Shown piece by piece: positions 5,331 through 56,962 of a stretch of DNA of 57,203 nt. A model generated the notes under the pieces. It made no database searches. It was given only the letters and a program-made list of their open reading frames with translations, and had not been told where the DNA came from. Positions within the stretch are counted from its first letter, which is position 1; the number at the start of each line of letters is the position of its first letter. The stretch lies in the NCBI GenBank assembly GCA_947588655.1, contig CANPYS010000007.1, positions 1 to 57,203 of the forward strand. Reading direction: 5' to 3'. This DNA is from an uncultured Alphaproteobacteria bacterium (lineage in GTDB: Bacteria; Pseudomonadota; Alphaproteobacteria; RF32; CAG-239). A program made the position numbers and the translations under genes.

Positions 5331-6419
5331 TTAACGACCGTCGTTGCCATTATTAATCGGAGGAACATGGCCACCGTTGCTTGGCGTTGGCTTTTCCGGC
5401 TCTTCTGTGGTCTTAGCAGTTTTCGCAGCAGTAATTCGTTCTTTAGCCGAATTAATCAAACCTTGTTTATCAGGGTTTATTTCAACTCCTACCACATTAG
5501 CATTCAAAGCTTCATCATCTTCAGCTCTGTTTCGTTTAATACGCGCTCTCCTTTCTTTTCTCTCTTCTTCTACTTTTTGTATTTTTTTATCCAATTCTTC
5601 AATATCAGAAGATATGCTATCCGCCATATCAGGACGAACTTTGCTAATTACATTTAAAGTTTCAATGAGGGCTTTGCCAACATCTGCCTGGTTTATACGT
5701 GACCTTAGATTTTTAGGATAAAGATCAGGAGCCATAAACTCATAAGCGTAACCTGCAAGTTCCGGATTAACTTGGACAGCCTTACCTGCAAATTTAAAAG
5801 CCTCTATCGTTCTACAATTTTCATACACAATTGGGTTATTAAAAGAATCTTTTACAAGTTCAAAGGCTTTTGTTTCAAATTTTGGATCAACTTTGATAAT
5901 CTCAACCAAAGTGTCATAAGCGGCTCCATATGAATATTCGTTGTTTTCATCTGATTTCATCAGGTTTTCTACCTCTTTTATCACTTTCGGCGCAGTTTGC
6001 GGTTCAGCCTTTACAAGATTACCCATAAATCGGTATTGAGCTGTCAGAATATAGCTACTTTCTTCAATAGGATTGAAGTTTTCTTTGGCAAGTTGTTTAA
6101 TTTCCGGCGCAAATTCAGGATGATTCCGCATGATATTACTTAAAATAAACATAGATCTTTGATCACAATGTTGGCAGCGGATTTCCTCATCGGAATCTAG
6201 CAATTTATTTTCCTTAATAAGATTGATAAGGTCTTGAGCGTCTTCTTTATCTAGTTTGAGTGCCAATGGGGCTAAGTCGCATAAAACTTGAAAAGAATCA
6301 TATTCATAAGAGTTATCATAGAAATAATTGAAATCTTGTTTCAATTCCTGATATTTTTCTTTTATCTCTTGAGGGGTTAATTTATTTAATTCTTCCATTT
6401 CTTCATCAACAGTACTCAT
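5331..6419 (-). CDS. Hypothetical acidic, helical-repeat-like protein
   Basis: I do not recognise this 362-residue protein. It has no signal peptide or membrane segment. Residues 1-260 look like a run of helix pairs with recurring (A/V)xxNPE or xxDPK turns (for example VQVNPELAG, KVDPKFET), as in ARM/HEAT or TPR-like solenoids. A CQHC motif sits near residue 83. Residues 265-300 are a highly charged coiled-coil-like stretch (KVEEERKERRARIKR). The C-terminus is Pro/Gly/Asn-rich and probably disordered. The ATG has AAGGAG as ribosome site. It lies in a gene-poor island, flanked by a terminator and inverted repeats, with an 11-C tract 214 bases upstream. Function unknown. Confidence 0.75.
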   Translation of the reverse strand: MSTVDEEMEELNKLTPQEIKEKYQELKQDFNYFYDNSYEYDSFQVLCDLAPLALKLDKEDAQDLINLIKENKLLDSDEEIRCQHCDQRSMFILSNIMRNHPEFAPEIKQLAKENFNPIEESSYILTAQYRFMGNLVKAEPQTAPKVIKEVENLMKSDENNEYSYGAAYDTLVEIIKVDPKFETKAFELVKDSFNNPIVYENCRTIEAFKFAGKAVQVNPELAGYAYEFMAPDLYPKNLRSRINQADVGKALIETLNVISKVRPDMADSISSDIEELDKKIQKVEEERKERRARIKRNRAEDDEALNANVVGVEINPDKQGLINSAKERITAAKTAKTTEEPEKPTPSNGGHVPPINNGNDGR

Positions 6420-6632: not shown

Positions 6633-6643
6633 CCCCCCCCCCC
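6633..6643. repeat. Poly-C tract of 11 bases
   Basis: Eleven consecutive Cs lie in an AT-rich spacer (poly-G on the reverse strand), 214 bases upstream of the 362-residue protein gene. Tracts of this kind are prone to slipped-strand length change. A second tract (9 C) interrupts the acetyltransferase gene near the other end of the window. Confidence 0.9.
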
Positions 6644-55224: not shown

Positions 55225-56085
55225 ATGAACTGGCTAACAGATATTGTACGTCCGAAAATTCAAAAGACAACGCCTAAAGAAATTGCTGACAATTTATGGG
55301 TAAAGTGTCCTTCTTGCGGGCAAATGCTTTTTTCAAAAGAACTAAAGAACTCGCTTTATGTTTGTACTTCTTGCGGGCATCATTTGCGTTTATACATCAA
55401 CAAACGTTTTAAAATGCTTTTTGACGATGAAAATTTTGAAGAAATTGCCTTACCAGAAACCCCTGATGATCCACTCAAATTTAAGGATTCGCAAAAATAT
55501 ACCGATCGTTTAAGAAATTACCGCAAATCAACCGGCAATCGCGATGCTATACGAGTCGGCAAAGGCAAAATTGGCGGCATTGACGCAGTTTTGGCTGTTA
55601 TGGATTATTCTTTTATGGGTGGTTCAATGGGTACCGCGGTTGGCGAGGGCATTGTGAAAGCGGCGGAATTAGCTTTGAACCAAAAACTACCGTTAATCAC
55701 GGTTTCGTCTTCAGGTGGCGCACGCATGCAAGAAGGCATTTTATCTTTGATGCAAATGGCGCGCACAACCGCCGCAATCAATATGTTGAAAGAAAACGGC
55801 GTTCCGTTTATTTCTATTTTAACAGACCCAACAACCGGTGGTGTTTCGGCGTCTTTTGCGATGCTTGGTGATGTCAACATTGCTGAAAAGGGTTGCCTGA
55901 TAGGTTTTGCCGGCCAACGAGTAATTGAACAAACCATACGCGAAAAGTTGCCTGAGGGCTTTCAACGTGCTGAATATTTGAAAGAACATGGCATGGTAGA
56001 TATTGTTGTGGATCGGGCGCACCTGAAAGAAGAGCTTGTCAAAATTCTTAAGATTCTGACCAACAAAAACCGCCACGCCGCTTAA
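55225..56085 (+). CDS. accD: Acetyl-CoA carboxylase carboxyltransferase subunit beta
   Basis: AccD is the partner of AccA in malonyl-CoA formation. It has 286 residues (E. coli 304). The N-terminal zinc ribbon is C28-x2-C31 and C47-x2-C50 (CPSC, CTSC), followed by the carboxyltransferase crotonase-fold (GGSMGTAVGEG, SSGGARMQEG, DPTTGGVSASFAM). It follows lapA by 9 bases. folC, a frequent neighbour, does not follow. Confidence 0.96.
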   Translation: MNWLTDIVRPKIQKTTPKEIADNLWVKCPSCGQMLFSKELKNSLYVCTSCGHHLRLYINKRFKMLFDDENFEEIALPETPDDPLKFKDSQKYTDRLRNYRKSTGNRDAIRVGKGKIGGIDAVLAVMDYSFMGGSMGTAVGEGIVKAAELALNQKLPLITVSSSGGARMQEGILSLMQMARTTAAINMLKENGVPFISILTDPTTGGVSASFAMLGDVNIAEKGCLIGFAGQRVIEQTIREKLPEGFQRAEYLKEHGMVDIVVDRAHLKEELVKILKILTNKNRHAA

Positions 56086-56139
56086 AAGCCCCAAAAAAAA
56101 GTTTTTGATAATGTATATAAAATTTTAAGGAGTTTCAAA

Positions 56140-56962
56140 ATGTTAAAGTGTTTTACCCCCCCCCAACTGGCTTTTTAGGGCTGAAATTAAGAAAAAATAT
56201 GAAGATGGTTTTTTAGTTCATACGAAAAAATTTATTTACATTTTAGGTTTTAAAATAAAATCTAAGCGACTAGAAACACCTAAAGTTTTTGGCGAAAATA
56301 ATCATATTATTTTGAATGGACGTGAAGTTCAAAAAATTAAAGGTTTTAAAATTTACATTGAAGGAAACAATAATAAAGTTGAAATTTCTTTAAATGAAAA
56401 ATCTAAAATTTTTGATAATGTCATTTATATTTCGGGTAATCATAACTCTGTACATATAGAATCTCCAAATTACATGGCAGGAACAGCCATTCGTATTGGG
56501 AAAGATAGTAATCAGGTTTATGTCGGTGCAGAATCCACTTTTTGTGAAGTAAAAGTATTTATTTGTAATAGAAAAATAAGCGATTTTCATCATTGTCAAC
56601 TTTTTATTGGGAAAAATTTTTCCTGTGGTGCAAATTTGCACATCAATCTCAGTGGTATTCGGCGAAAAATCAGCATAGGTGATGACTGTATGGTTTCATG
56701 GAATGTTTATGTTTGGGCAGCGGATGGACATTTAATTTATGATAAAACTAGCGGTAAACGTTTAAACCAAGAGCAAGATGTTATGATTGGCAATCACGTT
56801 TGGATTGGGCGGCATGCTTCGGTTCACAAAGGAGCTATAGTGCCGGACGGTTGCATTGTTGGAGCAAATTCTTTTGTAACAAAAGCCTTTGATGAAAATA
56901 ATGTTATTTTGGCGGGAACACCCGCAAAAGTTGTTCGCAGAAATATCCGTTGGGAAAGATAA
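56140..56962 (+). CDS. Hexapeptide acyltransferase, frame interrupted at a 9-C tract
   Basis: The continuous frame is a 216-residue left-handed beta-helix acyltransferase from 56312. Hexapeptide turns are visible (IGKDSNQVYVGAE, VMIGNHVWIGRHASVHKGAI, GCIVGANSFVTK, then AGTPAKVVRRN at the end), as in maltose/serine/xenobiotic acetyltransferases acting on polysaccharide or lipid sugars. A perfect ribosome site (AAGGAG, 7 bases) precedes an ATG at 56140. That frame hits a stop (56176) after 12 codons. The nine Cs at 56156-56164 are the cause: with eight Cs the ATG reads straight into the acetyltransferase, making 273 residues. The shown sequence is thus an off (or miscalled) version. An internal TTG start at 56312 is a weaker alternative, with no ribosome site. 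Confidence 0.8.
56156..56164 (+). repeat. Poly-C tract of 9 bases inside the acetyltransferase start region
   Basis: Nine Cs begin 16 bases after the ATG at 56140. The reading frame is restored by the loss of one C (eight in total) or the gain of two (eleven). Slipped-strand change here would switch the enzyme on and off. Confidence 0.9.

Follow-up and report, generated by a model that had tools for sequence, protein, structure and literature searches.

Phase variation by tracts of C or G is best known from cultured pathogens, namely Campylobacter, Helicobacter and Neisseria. The tracts of the Campylobacter phasome occur at many loci per genome, lie mostly within reading frames, affect glycan genes, and peak at lengths of 9 (53%) and 10 (26%) (PMC6321876). 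In Neisseria, a poly-G tract in the promoter of porA provides a transcriptional counterpart. Surface acetylation can also be switched by repeats. NeuO, the polysialic acid O-acetyltransferase encoded by prophage CUS-3 of E. coli K1, is turned ON and OFF by slippage of a heptanucleotide repeat near the 5' end of its gene, which gives a truncated product when out of frame and also adds heptads to the protein (PMC3046976). OatWY, the capsule O-acetyltransferase of Neisseria meningitidis W/Y, acts on a sialic-acid heteropolymer capsule.

Here we describe an acetyltransferase gene with a poly-C tract in the genome (G000) of an uncultured alphaproteobacterium. The gene was found in the window, by which we mean the whole stretch of 57,203 nucleotides analyzed. 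Its product shares the left-handed beta-helix acetyltransferase type of NeuO, and changes of tract length near its 5' end likewise separate full-length from truncated products in silico. In contrast to neuO, the gene carries a tract of one nucleotide, C. The prophage-borne NeuO has polysialic acid as its acceptor, whereas the genome studied here encodes no NeuB homologue. Judging from the sequence, the tract is very probably a translational contingency switch of a surface-glycan O-acetyltransferase of the OatWY/NeuO type, and it belongs to a group of about 57 tracts spread across the genome.

A poly-C tract at the start of an acetyltransferase gene

The gene lies on the plus strand behind the core gene accD (55225..56085, plus strand), with its ATG at 56140, 54 bases after the end of accD. 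A Shine-Dalgarno sequence, AAGGAG (56127..56132), is found 7 nt upstream of this ATG. Codon 5 is followed by an A and then by nine Cs (56156..56164), which form codons 6–9. Downstream of the tract, the frame continues through CAA CTG GCT TTT into a TAG stop at 56176-56178, so that the assembled open reading frame has only 12 codons in total (56140..56178). A frame of 265 codons encoding the acetyltransferase extends from the tract to position 56962 (56165..56962). This layout had been proposed in a sequence-only reading, and its coordinates and counts proved exact when the sequence was re-read; the 216-residue frame that it placed at 56312 also exists, and starts with TTG (56312-56962).

We varied the tract length in silico. 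Eight Cs gave a product of 273 aa, which bears out the earlier proposal that removing one C joins the start to the acetyltransferase frame, and 11 Cs gave 274 aa. Lengths of 6, 7, 9, 10, and 12 Cs all gave products of just 11–25 aa. The locus has two of the features by which poly-G/C contingency loci are recognized, namely a mononucleotide G/C tract of at least 7–8 bases in a reading frame and a change of length that toggles, here in silico, between full-length and truncated products. The acetyltransferase frame stays open over the 49 codons that separate the tract from the TTG, with a coding score of +10.3 and no stops, compared with scores of −26.9 (4 stops) and −49.2 (8 stops) in the other two frames. 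C8 matches were enriched in the window, with 6 observed and 0.36 expected from dinucleotide shuffles, and none of 100 shuffles reached 6. A second tract of 11 Cs (6633..6643, plus strand) is intergenic, ~214 nt upstream of the start of a minus-strand ORF (5331-6419), and no clear promoter was found around it in the window.

The predicted joined protein (P0001) contains hexapeptide repeats, with both PF14602 and PF00132 above cut-off. Among solved structures, its closest match by sequence was OatWY of N. meningitidis (E 8e-28), and NeuO of E. coli K1 was also matched (E 1e-22). Six active-site residues of NeuO and OatWY have been described (Met134, His147, Trp171, Arg174, Trp220, and Arg222 in NeuO; PMC3046976), and all six were identical in the alignments of P0001 with the two enzymes. 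The catalytic residues His197 and Trp221 (numbering of the joined protein) were invariant in 32 homologues. We infer that the window enzyme is an acetyl-CoA-dependent O-acetyltransferase of the OatWY/NeuO type that targets a surface polysaccharide. Because no NeuB homologue was found in the genome, a sialic acid polymer of the cell's own making is unlikely, and not supported, as the acceptor. The acceptor of the window enzyme likely differs from that of NeuO.

The nearest relative of P0001, at 44% identity, was found in a genome of another genus of the same family (G140). The G140 protein begins MLKILDKVCGAFFRVEIRKKYS... and the joined window protein begins MLKCFTPPNWLFRAEIKKKYE..., and the two N-termini align (MLK...FRVEIRKKY in G140 and MLK...FRAEIKKKY in the window protein). 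This match supports the ATG at 56140 as the start and indicates that the ATG before the tract and the acetyltransferase frame behind it are parts of one gene. The G140 gene has its own C8 tract at a different position (~codon 47), and is out of frame as assembled. Tracts were also present, again at different positions, in homologues from G070 (G9, in frame) and G071 (G8, out of frame by reading) and in two paralogues in the same genome, at C18:238 (G10, in frame) and C44:2699 (G9, out of frame). Tract-bearing homologues thus occur in three other genera and as two paralogues of the own genome, some of them ON and some OFF, and the differing tract positions within one enzyme family suggest that tracts were gained repeatedly. 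Orthologues with a normal start and no tract had been named in the sequence-only reading as an observation that would speak against switching. Most of the distant homologues indeed have no tract, but the nearest one has a tract of its own and an N-terminus that confirms the start. The genus is represented by one further genome, and a search of it for an orthologue gave no match at E ≤ 1e-20.

This other genome, of the sister species G001 (MAG 'Lapin-021'), has an accD gene 89% identical to that of G000. The lineage was placed by means of accD; a search of the genome contigs with P0001 gave no relative. In both relatives examined, accD is followed by other genes, which suggests that the acetyltransferase gene is an accessory insertion at this site. 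The contig ends 240 bases downstream of the gene.

The genome-wide set of C/G tracts

The genome comprises 1.55 Mb in 55 contigs and contains 57 runs of at least 8 Cs on the two strands; a further run, the 58th, is truncated by the end of a contig. This number was extreme among 152 genomes of the family, since the other 151 had at most 15 such runs, and most of them 0–9. Run lengths were counted in 235 kb of sequence, consisting of the stretches around the tracts. C/G runs of 4, 5, 6, and 7 numbered 429, 44, 2, and 0, respectively, and runs of 8, 9, 10, 11, and 12 numbered 7, 32, 16, 2, and 1. The distribution is bimodal, with a steep drop, a gap at length 7, and a separate class of 8–12 in which length 9 accounted for 55% and length 10 for 28%. 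The same gap at length 7 was found in the sister species. With many G/C tracts, a peak at 9–10, and mostly surface-glycan genes affected, the genome resembles that of Campylobacter, and its tract repertoire (about 57) is comparable in size.

When the best tract phase was chosen, 51 tracts lay within reading frames of at least 100 aa (median 319 aa); the phase was picked by maximal codon score, and a few assignments may be wrong, chiefly for tracts near gene ends. As assembled, 22 of the 51 frames read through, and the remaining 29 were frameshifted and needed one or two bases fewer. The coding strand carried poly-G in 39 frames and poly-C in 12. Four tracts with a short reading frame or none (C13:46499, C16:40998, C27:16209, and C41:6796) were not counted to any gene.

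According to Pfam matches, most of the 51 tract frames belong to glycosyltransferase, fucosyltransferase, capsule-modification, outer-membrane, or DNA-methyltransferase genes. The glycan genes include GT2, GT4 (group 1), GT6, GT10, two GT11, WbsX, two polysaccharide pyruvyltransferases, and AlgX-like and acyltransferase-3 genes. NAD-dependent epimerases, GDP-sugar enzymes, a DegT aminotransferase, KASIII, transketolase, the acyl-CoA reductase LuxC, and SAM methyltransferases were also matched, as were C5, N6/N4, and EcoRI-type DNA methylases and, among the tract-linked genes, an Opacity-like outer-membrane protein. A surface-polysaccharide cluster of 31 kb (C4:33301-64601) alone contains 18 C/G tracts of 8–11, with both ON and OFF genes.

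Elsewhere, GT6, GT10, and GT11 enzymes serve in the synthesis of Lewis and blood-group-like sugars. Tract genes at C5:42998, C16:25370, C22:23735, C22:22342, and C36:68 resemble GT10/GT11 fucosyltransferases, GT6 blood-group transferases, and GDP-fucose synthase, and such genes could possibly give rise to phase-variable, host-like fucosylated glycans. The methyltransferase tract genes lie at C34:6257, C3:30513, and C3:23682 (C5, N6/N4, and EcoRI-methylase-like), the first two frameshifted as assembled, and tract-bearing DNA methyltransferases possibly constitute phasevarions. In the sister species, paralogous genes for cysteine-rich secreted proteins (C34:5542 and C41:596) have a tract at codon 33, one a G8 in frame and the other a G9 out of frame. 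Tandem, near-identical genes of 604 and 606 aa in the same genome (C6:3192 and C6:5112) both carry G11 at codon 54, and are homologous to the tract gene at C22:21802 of G000.

Two outer-membrane protein genes have a C/G tract in the promoter, as does Neisseria porA. Upstream of the Opacity-like porin gene (C3:10646), TTGACA and TAGACT are separated by a 16-nt spacer that contains G10; at C28:6820, a C8 abuts TATAAT upstream of a gene for a 213-aa outer-membrane-barrel-like protein (L078:1638-2279). This porA-like, transcriptional arrangement was found at these other loci and does not concern the window gene.

Differences in tract state and length were seen at several places. A 602-aa gene common to G000 and the sister species has a tract at codon 137 in both genomes and is OFF in the former and ON in the latter. 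The dN (0.055) and dS (0.375) of this pair were alike upstream and downstream of the tract, indicating that purifying selection continues to act on the OFF copy. The ends of contigs C1 and C22 share 66 + 37 identical flanking bases around tracts of 10 and 12 Cs, and those of C36 and C18 share 26 + 67 identical bases around 10 and 9 Cs. Six of the 110 contig ends were within 100 nt of a tract, compared with 0.41 expected; with pairs counted once, there were four breakpoints near tracts (Poisson P ~9e-4). Contigs C16 and C49 each have an end where the break is at a tract, too. Breaks at tracts fit reads that disagree on tract length, although homopolymer read errors could produce the same pattern.

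Functional mismatch repair is missing in C. jejuni. In G000, both MutS and MutL were found as open frames above curated cut-offs, and we therefore rejected the idea that the tracts expanded because mismatch repair was lost. Repair loss is a property of C. jejuni that phase variation does not require, and given MutS and MutL, slippage may be slower here than in C. jejuni. The sequence context of the tracts is another difference from the Campylobacter phasome. TA precedes 51% of the C tracts of at least 8 in G000 and 64% in the sister species, compared with ~5% of runs of 3–4 Cs, and G precedes 2% of the long tracts but nearly half of the short runs. The upstream TA/T bias holds in both genomes whichever strand is coding. 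We rejected a G-run followed by a TAA stop as the source of the TA, because the context also occurs where poly-C is coding (compared by eye). A lineage-specific process by which C tracts arise or are kept at a preferred TA context in this genus is a tentative idea that we consider rather unlikely. If true, with MutS and MutL present, it could mean directed tract birth or maintenance instead of simple slippage and selection.

Proposed switching and its alternatives

In the proposed mechanism, slipped-strand mispairing during replication would change the number of Cs, and the ATG at 56140 would be in frame with the enzyme only at 8 or 11 Cs (n = 2 modulo 3). At these ON lengths the ribosome would read through to the acetyltransferase, and at other lengths, including the assembled 9 Cs (OFF), a short peptide would be made. 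The population would be a mixture of ON cells, which have one acetyl decoration, and OFF cells, which lack it, and the window tract together with the other tracts would produce many surface types and a combinatorially variable cell surface. Slippage would presumably take place in living cells, the acetylated sugar would be that of a surface polysaccharide, and the benefit may be the evasion of phage, antibodies, or host lectins.

Poly-C phase variation of a surface-glycan O-acetyltransferase is the reading best supported by the bimodal tract class, the bias toward surface and methylation genes, the tract found in the sister species at one and the same codon but in the other ON/OFF state, and the tracts of the homologues. 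The main alternative named in the sequence-only reading was a homopolymer error in sequencing or assembly, with a true gene of 8 Cs that is always ON. The organism is known from its assembly alone, a one-base change in a run of nine Cs is the commonest assembly error, and the fall of contig ends at tracts would suit such errors. However, errors shift a run by about one base and cannot make a separate class of 8–12 without any 7s. Neither can they place tracts in surface and methylase genes, nor put a tract at the same codon, with a different state, in an independently assembled sister genome; the independent tracts of the homologues point the same way. A true length of 8 would, moreover, still lie in the hypermutable range. 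We thus judge a read error to be improbable.

The gene is accessory and frameshifted in the assembly, as a decaying pseudogene inserted after accD, with a permanent frameshift, would be. Yet 265 codons without any other stop or frameshift and with intact catalytic residues argue against decay, and apart from the frameshift the 29 affected tract genes are open, with the one tested pair under purifying selection. We regard decay as highly improbable. The tract could also be real but neutral, or merely tune expression, if translation restarted downstream, for example at TTG 56312, and the enzyme was made in every state. In P0001, the core that aligns with OatWY starts near residue 66, downstream of this TTG, and NeuO does not need its N-terminal extension for activity (PMC3046976). 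However, no recognizable ribosome site precedes the TTG, the segment N-terminal to it is conserved with the G140 relative and therefore matters, and the other tracts of the genome mostly interrupt catalytic domains. Production in every state is accordingly a poor prospect in our view, while the position of the core downstream of the TTG means that the OFF state of a phase-variable gene may leak through internal initiation.

Implications for gut bacteria

The window locus appears to be a well-supported poly-C contingency locus of a class already known in kind, and of greater interest is the genome-wide set of which it would be a member. Among open-licence papers on homopolymeric-tract phase variation in Alphaproteobacteria or gut metagenomes, we found no description of this lineage in the titles and abstract starts, which is weak evidence. 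A gut alphaproteobacterium of commensal type has a tract set no smaller than that of C. jejuni, covering GT6, GT10, and GT11 enzymes, pyruvyl and acyl decorations, and DNA methyltransferases. This suggests that large phasomes arise independently in bacteria of the animal gut. Metagenome reads that already exist allow tract lengths to be counted, so that the selective pressure exerted by phage, IgA, or host lectins could be tested without culture.
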